A DNA stretch of 64,000 nt from assembly GCF_029962835.1 (NCBI RefSeq), contig NC_080584.1:78148862-78212861 (forward strand). The letters are read 5' to 3'. The notes beneath the pieces were generated by a model that had not been told where the DNA came from, did not search any database, and saw only the letters and a list, made by a program, of their open reading frames with translations. Shown piece by piece: positions 5,961 through 19,160 of this stretch (positions within the stretch are counted from its first letter, which is position 1; each line of letters begins with the position of its first letter). Source of the stretch: Magnolia sinica (taxonomy: Eukaryota; Streptophyta; Magnoliopsida; Magnoliales; Magnoliaceae). The position numbers and the translations under genes are program-made.

Positions 5961-8900
5961 TTAGATAAGACATATTACATCATCATGGCCAAGTGGTCGT
6001 TGGAGGACTGACTGATGTTGCAAAGTTGAATATATTAATGGATGGCCAGGGTTAAAGTCCTGTGTCGCATACGGTGCATCCATAAGGAGTGGTGCAATCA
6101 GTGGATGTCCATCGAGTGCATCAACCTTTTGGTAGCCATTATGAGGAAAAGGCAAAATGTGGGGATACCCCATGAGTGCCTTTGTCTTACAAGGCTCTTG
6201 GTATATCGGGGCCAAGGTTGAGGGTTGCCCCTCAAGCGTCGTGGTCATATATGGTTCTTGGTAGACCAAGTCCGCAATCGAGGGCTGCTCCCGGAGTGTT
6301 TTGGTCATATATCAGCCACTAGATGACTAGGGCACAACCGAAGGTTGCCCTACAAGTGTTTGTACCTTGTATTACCCTTGATACGAGGCTTGCATAACTT
6401 GGGGTTGTCCCCGACGGTATGTGGCCCTCTGGAATCCATTATAGTTAACTGATCCATTTTAGGGCTTCCCCCTGAGTAGGTTGGTCGTTAGGCCATGTAA
6501 TAATGGCAAAGTAGCTGTCTGGCTAACAGGGTTAATAGAGTCGACTAGGATGTGACTCCCAGTAGTGTGGTAACTTTGCTAGCCAAGACGTTGTGACTCG
6601 TCATCACTGCGACTATCTTGTTCTTCCTCTACCACCAATGAGGGCAATAGAGGATGGGTGGCTCACTTTGGCTAGCTTTGTTCGAGAGCTCAGCTGCTTG
6701 TTCTGCCTCATGTCCACTATGATGGAGAATGGGAGAACATCTATCAATAGCTTTAAGTTCCCAAAGATGACTCTCAACATTTCTCTCACTTATCTTAGAT
6801 AGTGACCAGGCATTCGTAGTGATCTATTGTATACTCTTTGTAAACTGATCGACGAATGTAGCAAAATTACTCAGGTCATGTTGGGAGGATGTTCTTGTAT
6901 CAACATTGTTTATAGGCTCATAATGTTGAGTCGGGTCTTGTTAGTTTTCACAGCATCAGTCATAAAACTAGCCTTTTTCAATTTTAATGGTATCTCTTTT
7001 AGATCGAGAAATACGCACACTCAATGGGTCCCACTGTGCACCCTACAAAAGGGTGTTGCCCTCAATTCAGCTAGTCAGGGTTGCTCGTGCGATCAAGGTC
7101 CTAGATCGATTGTACGTGTGCATCTATAATTGCGTAGGCATATTAGAGTCTGCCTAACTAAAGGTTTTCTTTGTTTGGCTGAACTTTTGGTGCCTCCCCG
7201 TGCTGAGATGGGTAGATTGGAGACTGGGTTGGGATCTAAGGTCCTCCATACTCAGGCAATTTATGCAAGGGTAAGGGTTAGCCCTCACGAATGAGTTCTT
7301 TTTGCCTTATGCTGATAGATGCAAGATTAGCCAACTTAAAGACTTTTTATTACACCAGTATTTTCCCATGGTATTTCTCAATCAGAATGGAAGATTTGTT
7401 CAAAAAAGGAAATATAAGCTAGGATGAACATGATCAATTTTATTTATATCTTGGCCATGCTACCACCGTTAGGTTTTACAACCATCTATAAATAAAAAGC
7501 GAAAAACAAGATAAGTGTTTGATGTGCCTATTAAAATAGATGATTAGGCAGTTGGTCAACAGTATATTGTTGTAAATGTCTGAAATTTGAAAACAACTGG
7601 TCTGTTGATGCCATCAATAGACAATTCAATGCCATCGAGCAAACATTGATGCCATCGACGGATGCTTGATGCCATTTGAAAATTTTGAAAAATCCATGTT
7701 TTATCATTGGAAAGTTTTGGAACTTTCTCGATGCCATCGACAATTTGTCGATGCCAAAGAAATACCATCGAAGGTTCCATCGAGCATACATGCAAAACTG
7801 CGTAAGTGCGGGATTTGTTTCCTATTTGGATTATAACTCTCATGCACGCTATATATATGGGTGTAATCGAGATTTAAGAGTATTATGGGCTTTCTAATTC
7901 ATAGTAGGGTTTTAAGGGCATAGCTTGGGGAGATTCGTGGGTTGTTCGAATCGGATAATCTCTATCTCTTGTAAATTTTTTTACTTTCACAGTGCATTAT
8001 TGTTACTTTATGTTGTGGTTTATTCTCGTAAGGGTTTTTCCACATTAAATCCAGTTTTTTGTGTTTGAAATTGGTTGTGTGATTGGAGTACTTTACTTGA
8101 TTAAACTCTCTATGCTTTTACAGTTCCCCAACAAATGGTTTCAAAGAATTCGTTGGGAAGCAGTTTGAATTTGAAAGAATAGTATCAATGGCTTCTAATC
8201 TAAAATTTAATATTAAAAAGTATTTTGAAAAAAATAATTTTAAAATATGGAAGGTCAAGATGACTAGTCTCCTAGTTCAACAAGGATTGGACAATACTTT
8301 CCTTGAGAACCAGTTAGAATCTATGACAAATGATGAATGGAACAAGATGGATAAGAAAGAGAGAACATCTATCCAATTGTGCCTAATGGATGAAGTCCTC
8401 CATAACATCATGAGAGAGAAAACAACAGCAAGTATATTGACAAAATTATAGAACATCTATGTGCAGAAATCTCTTGAAAATCACTTGTACTTAAAGCTTC
8501 AATTGTTCAATCTAAAGATGACAAAAGGAATTGATGTTGAGGCCTACATTAGTAAATTTAATAAGTTAATATAAAATTGCTGAATGTGGAGGAAACGGTG
8601 AAAGATGAGGATCATGCATGCATTCTGTCACATTCTTTTCTGGCTTCATATGAGTTATTTGAAGACTTATTGTGCACTGGTAGATCCACCATTAGCGTTA
8701 AGACCATTATCTCAACCCTTCAGTCGAAGGTGATTAGAAAGAAAAGCGGTGACATGAGTGCTTCTACAGATGCACTGTTTTGAGTGGACGGAATTCTAAG
8801 CGGGATAATGGATACTCACGATTAAGATCCAAATCTAAGGGCAAGGGCAAAGGGAAGTTGAAGTGTTGGAACTGTGGGATGTCTAGGCACAATAAAAAGG

Positions 8901-10730
8901 ATTGCACAAATCTTAAAGCAAAAAAAGAGAAATCAAGGGGTTCTTTTAAGGAGGCCAACATGGTGAAATCTAATGAGGAGATGAACGATAGTGACATGCT
9001 CACTGCATCAAAATTTGAATACTTCGATGGTGAATGTATTTTAGATATGGGGACTTTATACCACATAACCCCTCATTAGAGTTGATTCACCAGTTATAGT
9101 GAGTGTGATAGTGGCCAGGTCTTTATGGGTAATGATAATGCCTATAAAGTTGTTGGTGTTGGATTGGTGCACATCAAGATATTTGATGGTATGGAGCATA
9201 CCTTAATTGACATGAGTCACGTTCCTGAGTTGAAGAAGAGCCCGATATCTCATAGAGCACTCGATGTGAGGCGTTTGGGTGTAAATTCATCGATTTTAAT
9301 CGTGTCCTTAAAGTTTTAAAAGGGGTACTCATAGTCATAAAAGCATAAAGGAACCATCACCTTTTGATTGGGAGTATGTCATCTAGTGGAGTTGTGGCGT
9401 CTGTAACAAATGTCATGTCTGTAGGTATGTGGCATATATGTCTGGGCCACATGAGCAAGTAAGGTATGAAGGTACTTTCTGACAGTTGTTTAATTATAGT
9501 TTTTAAAGGCTTTTATTTTAGTATATGTGAGCATTGTATATATGGTAAATAATTTAAGTTGTCTTTTAAATTTGGTAAACACGTATATAAGGGGTTCTTG
9601 ATTATATACATTTTGATGTATGCGGGTTGGCGCCTGTGGTTTCCGGTGGAGGGTCATAATGGTTTGTCATGCTCATTGACAACTATTCCAGGAAAGTGTA
9701 TACTTATTTTAGGAAAAATAAATTTGATGTTTTCATCAACTTTAAGCAATGGAAGGCAATGATTGAAAATAACTAGGGCAAAAAGTGAAGGTACTAAGGA
9801 TAGATAATGGTGGTGAATTCACTTCAAGAGAATTCAATCAATATTGTAAGGATGAAGGAATCATGAGGCACAACATAGTGTGGCACATGCCAGAGCCAAA
9901 TAGTATAGCCGATCAAATAAATTGGACTCTCTTCGAGAGGGACCGAGGCATGATTAGTAATGCCAGATTGGGCAAGAAACTGTGAACTAATTAAGGCCGT
10001 TAACATGGCTTATTACTTAGTGAATCGGTCCCCTTCTATAGTTATTAATTATAAAATTTCTAAAGAAGTGTAAAGTGGTCAGCAAGTAGATTACTAGGAA
10101 CTGAGTGTGTTTGGTTGTGATGCTTACACTCATATACCATTAGTTGAGAGAGATAAGCCAGACCAAATAGCAAAGAAGTACATCCTTATCAACTAGGGTG
10201 GTGGTCTGAAGGGGTAGAGGTATGATTGAGTCACATAGAAAATCAACCTAAGTCGTGAAGTCAATTCGATGAGGAATCCTTGTTTCATAAAAATGAGAAC
10301 GAGGAACCAAAAAAGTTAATTGCGGACATTTAAATGGACACAAATGATACTCGGGCTGATATAGAGACGCAGACAAAGTTATAAGAATAGATGGAGCAGC
10401 TACCTGTGAGAAGGAATCCACTATGGGTTGGAGGTTACCAGCAAGATACATGGATGACTCAGACATCGCATTTTCACTCTACTCTTAAGGAAGATCTTGA
10501 TGAGTCTGATGCTAAAAAGGGAAAAGCAGCGATAGAGATGAGATGGACTCCTTATACAAGAATGAGATGTGGAAGTTGGTGAAGCTTCTTATTGGCTATA
10601 AAGTGATTAGGTACAAGTGGATGTTCAAGAAGAAACATAACAGTTACAAGGCAAGGTTGGTAGCAAAATGATACGCTTAAAGAGAATGCGTCGATTTCAC
10701 TGAGATATTCAGATTGGTGGTGAAACAAGT

Positions 10731-10746
10731 GTGTGTGTGTGTGTGT
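10731..10746. repeat. (GT)n microsatellite
   Basis: A short run of GT repeats in the Copia reverse-transcriptase region, just before the CACTA element. Confidence 0.8.
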
Positions 10747-10939
10747 ACATATATCAGATTCATGTTGGCACTAGTTGCCTAATACGATCTTGAGTTAGAG
10801 CAGATGGATATGAACACTACTAAAAAAACGATCAAAGGCTACGGACTATTCTGGTTTTTAGCTACGGCTATAAACCATAGTTCACTTGCTACAGCTTAAA
10901 ACTGTAGCTAAAACTGTCCAAACCATAGCTAATGCTAAC

Positions 10940-11300
10940 TCCGTCAGGCATACGTACAACCTTAGATACCCCATAGGGGACTCTACGGGGCCCATTAAAA
11001 TGTGTGGTCTCCATCTAATATGTCTATCCATTTTTTAAGAGTATTTTAGGGCAAAAGGAAGTAGATCGAAAGCTCAAGTGGACCACATAGTAGGAAAGAG
11101 TAGAGATTAATCCATTGATCGATGGTGTGGTTCAATTAGACCTTTGATTTGCCAAGATGTTGGGTTCATTCCCTATAAAAAAAATTACAAAATTAATGGA
11201 CGGAGTGGATATATCGATTGCATCAAGATGGACCCCACAAAGCCCTTGACGAGGCCGTCCGTCCAGATCCCGTGAAATGTGAATCATGGAGGGGTTGTTA
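10940..11300. repeat. MITE-like piece in CACTA left subterminal region
   Basis: It contains the family phrases 'ggggcccattaaaatgtgtgg', 'aatggacggagtggata' and 'aagtggaccacatag' on both sides of a centre, like the GGGCCCACC MITEs. Ends and target duplication are unclear. It interrupts the string of 'gctacgg' subterminal repeats. Confidence 0.5.
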
Positions 11301-11464
11301 CGGATTGTGTAATGGCTACGGTCATATTGACTTTTAGCTATGGTTAAAAACCATAGCAGGACCATAGCAGGTGAAAATGCAGAAAATCGCGCTGCCTTTT
11401 TCTTTTCCCCCTCTCATGAAACATTCATTTCCCTCCACTCAACCCTATTCCCTCTCATGTCCGT

Positions 11465-11566
11465 CCCTTTCTCTCTCTCTCTCAATCTCCTGTGCCCCTC
11501 TTCTCTATCTCTCTCAATCTCAATCTCATGCGTCCCTTTTCTCTATCTCTCTTAATCTCCTGCACC

Positions 11567-11604
<38 letters not shown>

Positions 11605-11635
11605 CTCCCGCACCCCTTTTCTCTCTCACTCCAGA
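11465..11635. repeat. CT-rich microsatellite / polypyrimidine tract
   Basis: Repeated (CT)n and 'ctctctcaatctc' blocks, including an uninterrupted (CT)n run near 11570-11600. A 'cttg|gtaagc' donor-like site follows at 11666-11671. This resembles a plant 5' leader and could be the leader of the chimeric transcript. That is inference. Confidence 0.6.
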
Positions 11636-12124
11636 AGACATCTCGGCAGCAAATTCAGAACTTGGTAAGCTTCTAATATGAGCTTTTTTTCCTTTTAGAT
11701 TTGTATATGTGGATCTTTCTGATTACTTCCCCTGCAAACTTAGAATGTAGGGGAAGCCGAAATGTGGAGTTCCGATTGCCGGTGGTCTGGCACTTCACAT
11801 TGAAAGAACTGCAGTCTGGCTGACATGAAAGAACTACATTCTGCCAATGTTCATTCCTTTGCTATCTTTGGTGCCAATCATCAACCAGTTCCTTCAAGAA
11901 TGATCTAAAGGTACTCGATGATATTACTGGCAGTAAGGAGAATGGTAGATTACTTCAGCGTGATCCTCATGCTAATGGTTGTTGCTTTGCAGGCATTCGC
12001 ATGTTTTTTCTTCTGCCCATTCGGAATCTGATCTGCTGAAGGCATCTGAAGTACTGAAAAGAGTTGTCTGTGCTCTCAGATTAGAGTGACAGGTTCTTGT
12101 CTGATCTTTCTTAACAACGATTCT

Positions 12125-12166
12125 TGTGTGTGTGTGTGTGTACACACACACACACACACACACACA
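12125..12166. repeat. GT/CA dinucleotide palindrome
   Basis: A (TG)n run is followed directly by 'tacacac' and a (CA)n run. Each strand can fold into a long dinucleotide hairpin or adopt Z-DNA. It lies inside the CACTA element. Confidence 0.85.
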
Positions 12167-13402
12167 CTGTAATCTATACTGTATGACGTCTGTTTTGCGA
12201 AAGACAGATAATCTTTTTGGCGATTGCTGCTTATGGCTAGTATATGGAATCTGTGGAAGGAAAGTAATGCGTGGTGCTTCGATGACATGGCTGCTTATGG
12301 CTAGATGTTATCTTTTCTTGAAGCTTGATTATTTAATTTTTTGATGCTCAAAACATCTCATACCAGCTTTTTGGCTGCGTGTGGATGCACAAGTAAATTA
12401 AATTGCAAACATTCATTTTAGTCAAGATAAACTGATAATGTATCCTACTATCTATATTGAGGAAGAAGAAGCCTCTCCTCCCATGCTGCTAAATTTCTTT
12501 CAAGCTTAACCTGATGAGAATGCAACTGCTATTTACTACTTACAATTTAGTATGATAGTGCATCCAAATGCACCTTTCTAACTCCATGTTTCGTTGTTTC
12601 CCAACACGTTTCTTGGTGATTCAGACATGGGTTGCCAGAAATTAGATCCAAAATGGGATGTGATGTGATGTGATGATATGAACTGATTGGATGCTGTCTT
12701 TTCTTAATGAGTGTGGGCCCCTACCAATAGTCCCAAATAGACCATGTCTCTTTGGTTATGCTGTCTTTTGTTAATTATTTTTATGATGTTTGTCCTAAAA
12801 AAAAGTAGTAGGTAGACTATGGACAAGAAACATTGTCCTTATCTTTTTCACTAAACTTTTACTTTAGGGAAGGATACAACATTGTATTGCTTTGCTTGGG
12901 TCCACATGCTAAGATGGTCGGATGGGAACCACCCTTGTTTTGGGTTCCATCCTTTACCATTGAAAATATTTTCAAAGATCTCCAGCAACAATGGAGGCAA
13001 AACTGATTCTTTCTTAATTAGAGCCTTAATTGCTAAATTAGGCATGCCATTTTAACTTCCAATTAAGTTCAATCCACTGAATTCTTGAAACATTTAGAGA
13101 AACACAGTTCAATCCCACTAAAATGACCATGAAATTATTATAGAAAGAAGTAAAAAAAAAAACCCCAAGAAATAGCATTTTCACTTTAATTCCCATCCTA
13201 CTAAAAGTTCAAGTTCTAAAATATAGCAGCATTTTCAGTATTATCGTTGTACCTATCAATGTTAGGTTGAGATGAAGGAAGAATTAACTATAAATAGGTT
13301 ATGCAATTCATTAAGAGGTCCATTTCATTACAAGTTATTCACTTCTATCAGTGGTTCAAAATTAGCTATGTTCAAAATTGGGTTCTGCTCCATAAGCGCT
13401 GG

Positions 13403-13742
13403 TATGCTGATAGATTGCATTTTAGGTATGAAAAAGGGCTTTACGGATGCTAGCAGTTTTCTAGGACATTTAGAACCCTTTTATGTTAATAGATGGAGAA
13501 AGGTAGTGGATAACGTGTTTGTTTACAATAAGAGAATATGAGATGTAGGAATTTATGGTGTCAACTACTAGTGCATGCACATGATGACCTTAATTATGTG
13601 TTTGAATGTCATAGATTTAATGATCCATGTTGATAAATTGCATTTTAGGTATGAAAGGGCTTTATGGCTGCTAGCAGTTTTCCAGGACATGTAGAACCTT
13701 TTACTTTAATAGATGGTGAAAGGTGATAGATAACTTGTTTGT
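13403..13742. repeat. Imperfect direct duplication of about 120 bp
   Basis: 13403-13528 and 13628-13742 are diverged direct copies, sharing 'gattgcattttaggtatgaa', 'gctagcagttttc' and 'aggacat.tagaacc'. About 100 bases separate them. The source sequence is not recognised. Confidence 0.75.
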
Positions 13743-14199
13743 TTATGGTAGGAACTAAGCATAGTTATCAGTGTCAACATTTTATCCCATTGATAAACTG
13801 ACATATTTGTTACTTATAAAAAAATGCATATTTAGTAGCTTTTAATATCTTGTACTATTGAAATAACGTTTTGGGTGCATCATCTGGGTTTTAAGTCTTC
13901 AAAATCTATTTTCATGGCAACAAAGGAACTTTTGCCTTGGATAACTTGTTGTGCTTGTATGGATGCTAATAGATGATCTTTTTTCATTGTGCATTGATAA
14001 CAACAATGAACCATTTCTGACTAGCATTTTAGCTAAGTATTTCAAACCTCTTTGGTGTTTTAGTTGGTTTCAAATCAAGATCATAGATGCATATGTTTAG
14101 AATTAGATTCCTGAATGGGTGAAAAATACTTATTAATTTTTTTTTTTTGGGTAAGGTGCAGGTTCAAAGGAACCTTTGGTTAATCGAGTTTCGCCTATA

Positions 14200-14412
14200 A
14201 TGGATAGGGAGTGGATAACACTAAGTTTTCTGGACCCATGTTTTATTTCTAGAATGAGAAGTTTTTTAAAGTTTGCACGAGATCACCTTCCTGGTAGAGA
14301 AACCATTTTTTGTCCATGCACCACTTGCAGATGTGCACGTTTACAGATTTCTTATAATGATTTGGAAATACATCTAATGAAAAATGGATTCGATCCAAGA
14401 AATAGGGTTTAG
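14200..14412 (+). pseudogene. CACTA transposase-associated domain fragment
   Basis: The frame begins MDREWITLSF and runs through FLKFARDHLPG, CPCTTCRCARL and HLMKNGFDPR. This is the N-terminal transposase-associated domain of plant CACTA proteins (a CPC..C cluster and HL...GF). The frame ends after 71 residues. The following DNA still reads as the usual HGEH continuation past that stop. No TNP2 transposase domain follows. A upstream in-frame ATG at 14176 would add eight residues; MDREW is the normal domain start. A truncated remnant that by itself could at most bind a partner or DNA. Confidence 0.78.
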
Positions 14413-14558
14413 AACATGCATGGTGAGCATGTATCACTTAAGTGTACTAAACGTGCATGTTGTTTTTATTGCTTCCTTCCCAATGGAAGGTCTTAATTAC
14501 ATGATGAACTTCTATTGTTTTGCAAATGCAGATAACTATTTGATTTGATTTACTGTAG

Positions 14559-14669
14559 AAAAGGATTAAGATGACATTAAGTTTGGGGTTGAAAATAAAG
14601 TAGACTTTTATGTTGTTTCCTTTGTCAAAGATGCGAAAGTGGTCCACGAATTGAAGGATTATCTCCGAA
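14559..14669 (+). pseudogene. Captured pyruvate kinase exon fragment, part 1
   Basis: Translation gives DDIKFGVENKVDFYVVSF, then VKDAKVVHELKDYLRS. This is the well-conserved stretch of plastid-type plant pyruvate kinase (KDW.DIKFGV.NKVDFYAVSFVKDA). The tryptophan expected after KD is a stop codon (TAA), so this piece is not a working exon in that frame. A 'tactgtag' acceptor precedes it and 'gtaaat' follows at 14669, so exon borders appear to have been kept. It lies inside the CACTA element in the same direction as the other fragments. Confidence 0.85.
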
Positions 14670-14786
14670 GTAAATACTCAGTACAAATATCTGTTTTTGA
14701 TGGTTGTATAATTAAATTTTGAATGTCATTTTTGGTTTGGTTAAACATTTTATGTGTTGTTAATGTCCTATGCTATGGTTTCTGCA

Positions 14787-14876
14787 GGCTGTGGTGCAGA
14801 TATACATGTAACTGTTAAAATTGAAAGTGTAGACTCCATACCAAATCTGCATTCTATCATTTCTGCATCTGATGGG
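14787..14876 (+). pseudogene. Captured pyruvate kinase exon fragment, part 2
   Basis: Translation gives GCGADIHVTVKIESVDSI, then PNLHSIISASDG, matching the next exon of plastid pyruvate kinase (ADIHVIVKIESADSIPNLHSIITASDG). The piece is bounded by a 'tttctgcag' acceptor ending at 14786 and a 'gtaatc' donor at 14877. The frame is open throughout. In the parent enzyme this segment includes the lysine and glutamate (VKIES) of the active-site barrel. The rest of the enzyme is absent. Confidence 0.88.
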
Positions 14877-15489
14877 GTAATCAACTTAATCATTCCATTG
14901 CCAATCTTAAAAAATGCTGCTAAGTTCAACTTGTTGATTTATCCTTGCACATCTCTGAGACTTGAAATGTTTTGACATTGCTGTTTAGTTCAACACATTG
15001 ATTTAACTTCTTAACAGTTGAACCTCTTTATCATATTTTATAATTCTCAACTACTGCAGCTTGCATCTAACATGTCTCATGTCCTATTCTTCTTCCTTTT
15101 AAAGAGTCAACTTTAGCTCTCTTTATTGGCCAATACCCAAGTGTTGGAAAATTTTTCTTTATTTTCTTTGATAGCCAAGAGTCAACTTTCTTGAAATATA
15201 CACACAGATTACACCCTTATCGACATATCTGTGGATTGAAATTCTTTACCTATCCAAATATTGTGCATTCGATGGTACATTAATATCTGTTTGAGTCAAT
15301 GTGTGTTGCATGTAGATTTTCTGAGTATGGAGCGTCATACACACCCTGAGTATCATATATCTCCTCAAAAGTGAAATAGAGAAATGATCCACTACTATCA
15401 AAGCAAAATAACTTATATTACTCTTAGTTGCACTGGGTCACTTTGACAACACAATTCATCGATCTAAGCTGTTCATTTGATCAATCACA

Positions 15490-15623
15490 GATTCAATGAG
15501 CTACTATGCAAAAATCACAACTACGAACCTTGCTGGGAACAAAACTCTAGTTATGCCTGTGCCTGCATTTAACGTCATCAATGGAGGATCACAATTTTAC
15601 GAACCTTGCTGGGAACAGAACTC
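15490..15623 (+). pseudogene. Captured enolase exon fragment
   Basis: In-frame translation from 15496 reads MSYYAKITTTNLAGNKTLVM, then PVPAFNVINGGS. The NLAGNKTLV.PVPAFNVINGGS string is diagnostic of enolase (2-phosphoglycerate dehydratase). The expected HAGNKLAMQEF continuation is missing. Instead a 25-base piece of the exon is repeated (about 15519-15545 and 15597-15623), followed by a 'gtatgc' donor. It lies inside the CACTA element, on the same strand as the pyruvate kinase pieces. Confidence 0.85.
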
Positions 15624-16462
15624 GGTATGCATCTTCTTCTTCTTTTCTTTTTCTTTTTTTTCTTTTTATTTTTTTGTTTTTAATTTTAATCCCGAAATGG
15701 TTTCACTATCAACCTGAATTTTGGTTGGGTTGGGTTACGTTGCATATAGAGGAAGTGCAAAGACAGGGTTGCGTTCCACACAACAATGTTAGGAGATTTT
15801 CTATACATTAAATATCATTGAAAATCCTTTTGCAGATTTTCTAAGAAACAATGGAAGTTGTTGTTCCAAACTGACAGTTGTTGTTTAAATATATCTTAAT
15901 ACTATTGTTGTATAGAACAATGGTAGCAGATTTTTGAAGTGTGTGGAACAGTTGTTGGGGTATGAAGGGTTTACTTGAATAGTTGGTGAAGGGTTTTGCA
16001 GATTTTCAGAGAGAGATTTGAGTTCAGCTTTGTTCTTTTGCTCTTTTTTCTTGAATTTGAGGTTGGGAGTTTGGAATTTCACGTCCTCGGGGAGAGCGAT
16101 GGATTTCAATGTGATCGTTAGTCTTTCTTCATGAACTGGAAGTGGGTATTTGGAATTATAGTTTTCTTTTTTTCCAACAGAGATTTGAATTTTAGATGTG
16201 TTGCTCTTTCCATGTGAATCTGATTTTCTTCTAACATCTTTCTTACTGTAGATGGGTGTTAAGAAGCCTCAAATCATGGAAAATTCTGTCACGATCTTGT
16301 CGAATGCAGGTCTTGGGATGGCCATGTTCCAAGTGCGTCCATTGCATTTTCAGCTCAATCTTCAAAACACACACAAACACATTTTCAGCCTCTTACGTAT
16401 AATGTCATAACATTCAATTTCTTCCATTTTGTATGATGAAATTGATTTTCAGTCATGTGCAG

Positions 16463-16622
16463 TAAGCTTTCGGATCAAAGCGAAGCCGAGAATAGGGTGT
16501 TAGTTGATGGCAAATTGATAACCAGTAGAGGCACATCCATGGAGTTTTCGCTTGCGATTGTTGAGAAGCTATTTGGCTGCGAGAAGGCATTAGATTCTGC
16601 TGCTAATGAGAACTTTAAATAG
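16463..16622 (+). pseudogene. Captured DJ-1/PfpI-family last exon
   Basis: An acceptor 'gtgcag' leads into SKLSDQSEAENRVLVDGK, then LITSRGTSMEFSLAIVEKLF, and a stop at 16620-16622. This is the C-terminal exon of plant DJ-1 homologues (RVVVDG.LITSRGPGTSMEFALAIVEKLFG.EKA). The family Gly-Pro after SRG is missing. An upstream piece at about 16250-16310 (MGVKKPQIMENSVTILSNA) ends in an exon-like 'gaatgcag' but I do not recognise it. This is the fourth host-derived piece on the same strand of the CACTA element. Confidence 0.82.
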
Positions 16623-16825
16623 ACATATAACTATTATGTTGGCATTGTACTTTTGTGAATGGAAATGAATGATTTTATATGATTGAATGAATGAATGATT
16701 TTGTTTGATTGAATGAATGAATGATTTAGCCATAAAGTATTTATGTATTTTAGCTTATATGAGTTATCAGGGTGTACTACAATGGTAAGAACTGCCATTA
16801 TTATCTAATTTTTAAAATTAAAATA

Positions 16826-17300
16826 GGCATTAGCTACGGATATTAACCGTAGCCCTTTAGCTGAAAACCGTAGCTTTTGCTAATTTCAGCCTTTTGCTAC
16901 GGTTCTCATTGTACTTTTAGCTATAGATATAATCTATACCTGTATATAATTTAGAGCTATGGAAAATATTGCTATGGATTTAATCCATACCTATCGTTTC
17001 TATAGCTACAGCTATTCACCGTAGCTGTTTATCTGAAAACCATAGCTGTTGCTGATTTAAGCCTATTGCTACGGTTCTCACTCTACTTTTAGCTACAGAT
17101 ATAATCCGTAGCTGTAAATACTTTAGCGCTATAGAAGCAATGGCTACGGATTTAATCCGTATCCATTGTTTATATGGCTACGGATAAAGATTTTAGACCT
17201 ATGGCTACGACACCAATGGCTACGGTCGTGCTACGGACTTTAACTGTAGCCATAGGCCTTTAGCTACGGTTTTTATCCGTAGCCTTTGCCCAGTTTTCTG
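16826..17300. repeat. CACTA right subterminal repeat array
   Basis: About a dozen copies of 'gctacgg' or 'ccgtagc' with variants occur in both directions, spaced about 15-60 bases apart. They match the left-end copies at about 10839-10935 and 11310-11375. By family knowledge such arrays bind the CACTA transposase accessory protein. Confidence 0.8.
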
Positions 17301-18426
17301 GTAGTGAAAGATTGCCTTCCTGCATGGAGAATTGACAAAATATATCTACATGAAGAAACCAAAATGCTACAAAGTACAAAGGGTAGAGAACAAGATTTGT
17401 AGGTTAAAAAAACCCAAAACAATCACCTAGGCAATGGTATAAAAAGTTTAATTCATTCATGGTAAGTCAGACGTTCACTAGGGTGAATATGATAATTATG
17501 TTTATTACAAGACCTGAGCGATGAAAAATTCGTTATCCTGATTTTGTATATCAATGACATGCTTATCGCCAGTCACAACATGTATTAGATCGATTTACTG
17601 AAGACTTAATTATTAGAGACATTCAAAATGAAAGATCTGTGGGTTACAAAGAAGGTTCACAGCATTGATATACACAAAGATAAGAAGAGGAGCAAGCTTT
17701 GGTTATCTCGGGAAGAATATCTTGAGAAGATATTGATTAAGTATGGGATGAATAAGTAAAGCTGGTCAGCATTCCTCATTCCTCACGTGACACACTTTAA
17801 GCTTTCTTCAGAACATTGTTCTAAAACCGATGAAGAAAAGTATGTTATGTCTCATGTGCCTTGTTCGACTGTGGTTAACTGCTTGATGTATGCTAGACCA
17901 GATATTTTACATGCAATTGGTGTTGTTAGCAGTTACATGTCTAACCCCAGCAAGCAACACTGGGAACCGATGAAATCGCTACTTCAATACATCCGAGGTA
18001 AGTAAGACTACGTCTTATCTTTTGAGAAATTATGGGCCAAGTTAGTAAGTTATATGGATTCTGATTACTCATGCAGTGTGGATAGTAGAAGGTTGACTTC
18101 TGGTTACTCGTTTGTTCTAGCAGGTGGAGCGATTAGCTGGATGTCAAAGCTTCAATCATGGTAGCTCTTTCCACAACCAAAGTTGAGTACATTGCGCTGA
18201 TCGAGGCATTTAAGGAAGGCATTTGATTGAGGGGGATGGTAAATCAGTTAGGTCTTCAGTAAGAGGTTGCTCCAGTCAATCATGACAGCGAGAGTGCGAT
18301 CAATTTATCTAAAAATTCTGTTAATCACTCACATACTAAACAAATTGATGTACATCACTATTTTATCCGACAAGTACTCGAGGAAATAATACACGTCACA
18401 TCTTAAAGCTAAAGAAGTATCTTTAA

Positions 18427-19160
18427 ATGCATTTTCAAACTAAAGATTTAGGGTTGCTTTGCTATTTCTTGAGGATTGAAGTCGCTAGATCGATGTTTGG
18501 GATTAACCTATCTCAAATGAAGTATCTTCTTGATTTACTAAAGGAGACTGGTATGCTTAGATGTAGGTCAGTTGATACACCCATAGAAACTAATGGGAAA
18601 TTATTAGATGATCAGGGTAAGTTATTTGATGACCTAGGTAGATTCAGGAGGATGGTTGGGAAATTGATATTTTCTTCTCCTTTTTTCTTTTTACACATGC
18701 ACTCACACCCCCCCACACACTAACACACTTACACCAAAGTGGGTTTTCACCACAATGTGTACTTGAACCCATGATCGCATGTTGAAAACCTTGTAAGTGT
18801 ACTACTGAGGCATGAGTAAGGACCCAATTGGGAAATTGATATATGGTACTATATACTACATTTTTCATGCATGGTGAATGTGTGTGTGTGTGTGTGTGAG
18901 TCAAGAGTTCCTCATTAAGAGGCAATTCTTAGTATTCTCATACATTTTAAGAAAGCTCTTGGCCAAGGGATCTTATATTTTGTTGATTGTCATCTTTAGG
19001 TAGAGGCATTTGCAAATGCCCACTAGGCATGATTCATTATAAATTTATAAATAGGTGATCTATTTCAGGATATTGTACCGTTGTTAGTAGAAATTTTAGT
19101 TACCTGGAAGAAGAAGCAAAAGGTGGTTGCACATTCCAATACAGAAGTTGAGTACAAAGC
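18427..19160 (+). mobile_element. Copia pol fragment (RT end and RNase H)
   Basis: About 18427-18655 encodes a reverse transcriptase end (TKDLGLLCYFLRIEVA, then a D-T-P-I segment). About 19070-19160 encodes part of RNase H (VTWKKKKQKVVAHSNTEVEY). It is a different copy from the element ending at 18420 and is split by a SINE. No LTR is assigned. Old and broken. Confidence 0.7.
18671..18827 (-). mobile_element. tRNA-derived SINE with 15-bp TSD
   Basis: Exact 15-base direct repeats 'ttgggaaattgatat' flank the insert (18656-18670 and 18828-18842). Read on the reverse strand, the body starts near 'gggtccttactcatgcctca', includes a box-B-like 'gggttcaagtacac', and ends in an A/G-rich tail next to the duplication. 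This layout, together with the roughly 157-bp length, is that of a plant pol III SINE. Box A is less clear. It inserted into the Copia fragment. Confidence 0.82.

Follow-up and report, generated by a model that had tools for sequence, protein, structure and literature searches.

We analyzed a 64,000-nucleotide stretch of the Magnolia sinica genome, hereafter called the window (NC_080584.1; C12:78148862-78212861), and found that positions 10815-17306 hold a CACTA element that very probably arose by internal deletion as a non-autonomous copy within a high-copy CACTA (En/Spm) family, in which some transposase-bearing members carry strings of host-gene exons. Copies of the family share their ends and the order and strand of their cargo, a member on C9 has its transposase gene upstream of the cargo, the window copy passes from transposase to cargo sequence at a junction at 14458/14459, and the cargo has changed neutrally among copies. 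We propose that some transposase-bearing members hold host-gene exon fragments with introns in the interval from tnp2 to the 3′ end and that the element gathered these fragments, most likely in the Pack-CACTA manner, in which neighboring copies form hybrids that trap the DNA between them. The cargo may then have spread as passengers through transposase supplied in trans. The cargo most likely has no protein function; as in soybean Tgm-Express1, random transcription and splicing would be the most to expect of it. The genome searched comprised 1.84 Gb in 127 contigs; genome-match lists consist of the best 40 scored of the first-look candidates, and copy counts and linkage counts are lower bounds.

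The element is 6,492 bp long with a GC content of 36%, starts with CACTACTAAAAAAACGATCAAAGG, and finishes with CCTTTGCCCAGTTTTCTGGTAGTG. Its features, in window coordinates, are as follows.

10812-10814 (GAA, left) and 17307-17309 (AAA, right), no strand: imperfect target-site duplication, 2 of 3 bases alike.
10815-10845, plus strand: 5′ terminal inverted repeat starting with CACTACTA, a 31-nt arm 81% complementary to 17276-17306.
11400-11640, plus strand: CT-rich leader-like tract just within the 5′ end.
13884-14458, plus strand: 5′ portion of a tnp2 transposase gene, left as a remnant that is 94% identical to the transposase-bearing C9 element.
14458-14459, no strand: deletion/fusion junction from transposase sequence to pyruvate kinase (PK) intron, placed base by base against C9 (left) and sister copies c10, c18b, and c3 (right).
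14559-14669, plus strand: plastid PK exon fragment 1 (PF00224), 89% identical to the gene on C5.
14670-14787, plus strand: captured PK intron, its position matching the intron of the C5 gene in alignment.
14788-14876, plus strand: plastid PK exon fragment 2, from PF00224 when joined to exon 1 and from alignment to the C5 gene.
15491-15624, plus strand: enolase fragment, with gene homology at 15524-15593 and then a partial self-repeat.
16252-16332, plus strand: PIN auxin efflux carrier exon fragment (Pfam Mem_trans, 0.003), absent from the original prediction.
16453-16622, plus strand: fragment of the DJ-1 terminal exon, stop codon included (DJ-1 in PDB, 5.1e-5).
16830-17292, no strand: subterminal repeats GCTACGG...CCGTAGC in direct and inverted families, a 172-nt unit twice plus shorter units.
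17276-17306, minus strand: 3′ terminal inverted repeat finishing TAGTG, with an identical 3′ end in sister copies.

Consistent with the CACTA (En/Spm) superfamily, the terminal inverted repeats start with CACTA, short subterminal repeats (GCTACGG/CCGTAGC) occur in both orientations, and a tnp2-type transposase is encoded in the family by the C9 member. The 5′ 201 bp of the element gave 757 first-look genome candidates, and the best 40 scored comprised the element itself at 100% and others at 85-90%. Joining the two flanks minus one triplet yielded a query with 905 first-look candidates; uninterrupted Copia-type copies crossed the join in 39 of the best 40 scored hits, and the remaining hit was the window itself. 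The element is inserted into a decayed Copia-type retrotransposon (window positions of about 8000-10814 and 17307-19000), at a point that we take to be the reverse-transcriptase part. The inverted ends, the subterminal repeats, and this empty site all support the CACTA element at 10815-17306 that the original prediction had proposed from the DNA letters.

Sister copies of the element were readily found. PK exon 1 had 10 matches in the genome: the window copy, eight sister copies (93-98%), and the C5 gene (89%). Because eight sisters share the PK piece, the cargo was inherited and is not private to the window copy; the fragments were not gathered by this copy but came down to it within a large family, some members of which bear transposase. 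The region 14449/14460-17306 formed a single contiguous block at 89-91% in six of the eight sisters, the two exceptions being c6, which carries an insertion, and c3, which ends near 15291. Within the stretches fetched, the 5′ end was located in five of the eight, with element lengths of 8,267 to 14,113 bp, and the 5′ ~730 bp of the element was common to all five. Exact 3-bp duplications flank four of the six cargo-bearing two-ended copies (c10, ATT; c12b, GAG; c19, CAC; c18b, GTT), and the other two have no exact duplication (window, GAA/AAA; c1, ACA/AAA). The middles, between the 5′ ~730 bp and the 3′ block, vary: c1 and c19 have one in common, c10, c18b, c18a, c6, c12b, and c3 have parts of a second in common, and the middle of the window copy was not found in the eight sisters. 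We also observed an extra 2-kb stretch shared by c12b and c18a. In the copies examined, the pieces did not occur together outside a CACTA element.

As predicted, the window copy contains a transposase-associated domain, in an open stretch at 14155-14409 (Transpos_assoc, PF13963, 5.3e-10). This stretch had 460 first-look candidates, the best 40 of which, window copy included, scored 93-100%. The C9 member, at 15.2 kb, encodes a 427-amino-acid frame with Transpos_assoc (PF13963, 9.2e-15) and Transposase_21 (PF02992, 1.6e-43), followed by DUF4218 (1.3e-13). Downstream on the same strand, Pfam detected RPS3A (1.9e-26), ELMO (1.1e-8), PIN (1.4e-4), and a TOP2-like piece (5.6e-5, under the cut-off), and DNA matches, not Pfam, located PK exon 2, enolase, and DJ-1. 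No tnp2 domain was detected in the window's 15 plus-strand frames of 11559-14409 or in 5 plus-strand frames downstream; like non-autonomous Pack-CACTA elements, the window copy lacks a complete transposase and retains the 5′ part to 14458. Because the match switches at 14459 from the C9 transposase gene to the PK intron, we read the window copy as an internal-deletion derivative.

Linkage across the genome agreed with the C9 layout. PK exon 2 lay on the same strand downstream of Transpos_assoc within 50 kb in at least 18 of 40 cases (window included), and the other three arrangements numbered 0 among the matches listed, with 0.024 expected per class; at least 8 of the 18 pairs were spaced at 7.1-8.2 kb. 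DJ-1 was on the same strand downstream of Transpos_assoc in at least 6 of 40 (window included; 0 in the other classes among the matches listed), and so was enolase in at least 5 of 40. For these counts, we used 45 of 63 PK rows (omitting 12 exon-1 rows, 3 exon-2 rows of gene-like loci, and 3 weak distant rows), 38 of 40 enolase rows (omitting C13 and C1:61809346), and all 40 rows each for DJ-1 and Transpos_assoc.

Host-gene DNA including introns, a hallmark of Pack-CACTA elements, is present as the PK exon-intron-exon, enolase, PIN, and DJ-1 pieces. The PK identification is strong: the two exons joined matched PF00224 at 5.7e-12 and solved PK structures in PDB at 1.5e-8, with exon 1 alone reaching 6.4e-5 in Pfam and exon 2 alone giving no Pfam match. 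For the short enolase, PIN, and DJ-1 pieces, the putative identities come from PDB matches, with Pfam values below cut-offs. Enolase gave 4.6e-6 in PDB and 0.0092 in Pfam (under the curated cut-off), and DJ-1 gave 0.0014 in Pfam (under the curated cut-off). From the window letters, PIN reached 0.003 in Pfam (under the cut-off), compared with 1.4e-4 for the C9 copy; the PIN peptide headed by W, as in the sister frame, matched PDB 7wks at 1.6e-4, and the window frame has M at that position. The DJ-1 piece had 343 first-look candidates, the best 40 scoring at 93-100%, and 21 of 40 scored matches covered nearly all of the enolase piece.

The prediction of three or more host gene fragments on one strand was borne out for the two PK exons, enolase, and DJ-1 by the Pfam and PDB matches and by alignment to the C5 and C13 loci, but it had missed the PIN exon. 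The enolase piece, placed earlier at 15490-15623, does contain enolase, but genuine gene homology spans only ~70 nt (15524-15593; 97% identical to the C13 locus), and the remainder includes a self-repeat. The apparent natural enolase splice acceptor, read by eye, is kept in two other copies (L035 and L036) and lost in the window copy. We also observed signs of local rearrangement, with a partial enolase self-repeat at 15594-15624 and a displaced string at 15700-15720 that is found beside enolase in L035 as well. Over the 501 bases read, the enolase copy at the C13 locus (L037; C13:36057200-36057700) shows no introns and contains an in-frame stop; it is probably a processed pseudogene. The presence of two consecutive glycolytic enzymes, pointed out in the original prediction, is not special because the family also carries PIN, TOP2-like, RPS3A, RPL19, ELMO, and IFRD pieces. 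Several of these other cargo genes are housekeeping genes, which would fit the idea of capture from highly expressed genes.

Other copies carry further host exons. The middle of c1 (L014) contains, on the plus strand of the element, an N-terminal exon of RPL19 (PF01280, 9.8e-17) and the C-terminal end of IFRD (PF05004, 4e-6); c19, which shares this middle, is L015. The plus strand of c12b, the only strand scanned in this copy and not part of the strand count below, has an LRR match (4.2e-8) and, by eye, a second enolase exon missed by Pfam. L035 represents a second cargo class, in which enolase is followed by two further exon-like pieces and then by DJ-1 ~360 bp downstream; L036 was read to enolase only. 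Eight enolase matches of the L035 class score identically, hinting at recent spread. Neither exon between enolase and DJ-1 in L035 received a Pfam name, and the one sent to PDB had no match. A longer C9 frame of the same exon type matched DNA_topoisoIV at 5.6e-5, under the Pfam cut-off, and this TOP2-like piece is presumably the C-terminal part of TOP2.

Rising counts from PK exon 1 (9 copies) through enolase (21 of 40) to DJ-1 (343 candidates) suggested a stepwise layering of cargo, with DJ-1 the oldest and PK the youngest. We dropped this idea since PK exon 2 was kept in all three examined enolase copies without full PK exon 1 (L030-L032) and since PK exon 2, enolase, PIN, and DJ-1 all occur in the transposase-bearing C9 copy. 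Loss by deletion fits the differences between copies better.

To describe how the cargo has changed, we compared five exon pieces in eight or nine copies, window included, with the family majority. Changes numbered 33 synonymous, 85 replacement, and 4 stop, against neutral expectations of 34.3, 85.2, and 2.6, respectively. PK exon 1 of the window copy alone is interrupted in frame by TAA at 14567-14569, where eight of eight sisters have TGG. The splice-site-like borders described in the original prediction are present, with 68 of 76 dinucleotides kept over copies; 8 of 76 were lost against 5.0 expected, half of them (4 of 8) at the enolase acceptor. When the exons were joined in silico, no continuous frame was found in any of the seven full copies, each of which had at least five stops in every frame. 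Mean identity among these seven copies was similar for exon and non-exon sequence (0.93-0.95), with the PK intron (0.90) and the subterminal region (0.88) as exceptions. We detected no purifying selection on the cargo among copies. The cargo is thus evolving as passenger DNA, and a chimeric protein is not supported because a continuous frame is missing and change is neutral.

The source of the PK piece was sought in a PK protein search with 63 matches, in which gene-like loci with both exons lay on C5, C18, and C6; three matches were weak and distant, and the others were read as transposon copies, part of them checked. The cargo PK exons are 88-89% identical to those of the C5 gene, and the C5 exon-1 protein equals the family majority except at one residue. 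We nevertheless do not favor the C5 gene as direct donor because the introns are 58% alike and the exon changes are nearly all synonymous. The C18 and C6 genes look more distant (89% and 82%, respectively, to the C5 exon-1 protein). Read by eye, PK exon 2 of the element shares some silent states with C5 and others with C18. Between the family-majority PK exons and the C5 gene, we counted 16 synonymous differences and 1 replacement difference (p ~1e-8 against 0.27 synonymous). Because this divergence arose under constraint, most of it must have accumulated along gene branches. A different PK gene was thus the probable donor, one that is missing from this genome or escaped our search and that may be a lost paralogue.

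Some observations weigh against our interpretation of an internally deleted passenger of a transposase-bearing family. The target-site duplication of the window copy itself is imperfect. The pattern of divergence from the C5 gene differs from that among copies (Fisher p ~1e-7). PK exon 2 and DJ-1 occurred in the expected arrangement at least 11 times and in another arrangement once, and enolase and DJ-1 did so at least 7 times and once, respectively. A matching duplication was found in neither of the two transposase-bearing two-ended places (C9 and C12:62110641-62139659), and an end was not found in the transposase-bearing places on C10, C7, and C1. Because of these unmatched duplications and missing ends, the view that transposase and cargo form one unit rests on linkage and on the layout of C9, the only such member read through. 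In addition, the neutral model assumed a transition weight of 3 and a CpG weight of 5, changes were tallied per copy so that those shared by descent count repeatedly, and the single TAA codon of the window copy accounts for two of the four stop changes.

Among other explanations, it is unlikely that the element acts as a source of small RNAs that silence its source genes. The cargo exists in many copies and resembles the C5 PK exons (88-89%) and the enolase locus (97% over 70 nt), and Pack-TYPE elements are discussed as an origin of such conflict (PMC8903248), but at a PK identity of ~88%, perfect 21-nt matches are few.

In En/Spm elements, TNPA exons lie downstream of tnp2. It is conceivable but unlikely that the cargo lies within the transcription unit of the element and has taken the place of the 3′ exons in a second product resembling TNPA, with DJ-1 as the terminal exon and only sense exons tolerated. 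Equally unlikely is the related proposal that the element pre-mRNA is a sense-only exon trap downstream of tnp2, which took in DJ-1, stop codon included, as last exon together with further sense exons, drawing on at least nine host genes in all. We scanned both strands with Pfam in the middles of the window copy, c10, and c1 (77 plus and 88 minus frames of at least 40 amino acids) and in C9 6000-15260 (66 plus and 80 minus frames of at least 33 amino acids); low-complexity frames and, per set, 2 plus frames and 1 minus frame across a fetch boundary were omitted. At E<1e-4, all five further host families (RPL19, IFRD, RPS3A, ELMO, and TOP2-like) were on the plus strand, that of the transposase, and none on the minus strand. 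All nine recognized genes are in sense orientation, including the four window fragments whose plus strand was known beforehand, and DJ-1 follows at least 6 of 40 Transpos_assoc matches.

Against a sense-only unit, five of five is by itself weak (~0.03, one-sided), and the 1e-4 line was set after the results were seen. Just past this line lay PIN (1.4e-4) on the plus strand and DUF3915 (2.1e-4) and HTH_ParB (3.8e-4) on the minus strand. The two latter, together with W02B3_4_N (0.002), three weaker minus-strand matches, and a galactokinase signature (0.0056), were set aside as chance or low complexity. The galactokinase signature, at 15283-15417 and below the cut-off, was the one match among 15 minus frames scanned in the window cargo block (some short frames omitted), and it may be due to chance; a true captured piece in antisense would weigh against strand bias. 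The scan found three of five known plus-strand cargo frames (PK exon 1, 6.4e-5; DJ-1, 0.0014; PIN, 0.003); PK exon 2 and enolase went undetected, as antisense pieces may have done too. This insensitivity and the weak antisense match lower the odds of a sense-only unit. Moreover, the cargo has no frame and decays neutrally, and a grapevine CACTA element holds a captured fragment in the opposite orientation (PMC2528002).

A working chimeric gene made of captured exons and maintained by selection is very improbable and, for the window subfamily, already largely refuted. The borders mostly kept, the stop codon retained in the DJ-1 piece, and the almost entirely synonymous differences of the family-majority PK exons from C5 would suit such a gene, but the changes among copies are neutral, splice dinucleotides were lost at about the neutral rate, all seven full copies have stops in every frame of the joined exons, and exons are no more alike than non-exon sequence. 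We regard it as next to impossible that the pieces are chance neighbors (nested pseudogenes or repeats) and not the cargo of one element: the nested Copia-type host, the interruption of c6, and the extra stretch in c12b and c18a would allow this, but order, strand, and similar spacing recur in sisters on other chromosomes, four of them with end duplications, and the empty site is intact elsewhere.

The Magnolia element can be compared with known CACTA captures. The closest is soybean Tgm-Express1, which carries fragments of UP, CDC2, FPK, malate dehydrogenase, and cysteine synthase (PMC1947982). In both elements, CACTA ends surround exons and introns of several unrelated host genes, central-metabolism genes among them, with borders that are usable for splicing in soybean and splice-site-like here. 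Chimeric RNAs were shown for Tgm-Express1, which is inserted in a gene intron (PMC1947982). The Magnolia element, in contrast, sits in a retrotransposon and holds different genes; its family numbers hundreds of candidate copies, and the cargo also occurs with transposase. The window element also resembles Pack-CACTA and other Pack-TYPE elements, non-autonomous CACTA elements with captured gene DNA, and multi-locus cargo is common in maize Pack-CACTA; those of rice and maize are described as mostly low-copy, unlike the hundreds of candidates here, and the Magnolia family differs in having a transposase-bearing member with the same cargo (PMC8903248, PMC13317346).

Transposase and a captured host fragment are combined in one element in Chenopodium Jozin (PMC8978399) and grapevine Cactavine-5 (PMC2528002) as well. 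The Jozin fragments lie 5′ of the transposase open reading frame, whereas those in Magnolia are downstream (PMC8978399); the PPR fragment of Cactavine-5 is downstream and antisense, whereas several are downstream here, and those at E<1e-4 are sense (PMC2528002). Wheat CACTA captures likewise represent exon shuffling, but some of them are expressed and under purifying selection, unlike the neutral change among the Magnolia copies (PMC4290129). Publications have described CACTA elements with several captured host gene fragments from 2007 at the latest (PMC1947982), and we found no description of this gene combination in a search by titles and abstract openings, with most subscription journals outside it.

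The Magnolia element is real, one fragment richer than first noted, and ordinary in kind. What it adds is a clean genome-wide case: a single high-copy family in which the same cargo occurs in a transposase-bearing member, alongside deletion derivatives, measurable neutral decay, and possibly a strand bias. If this bias holds true over more members, it would make testable whether capture or retention of host exons depends on transcription of the element.

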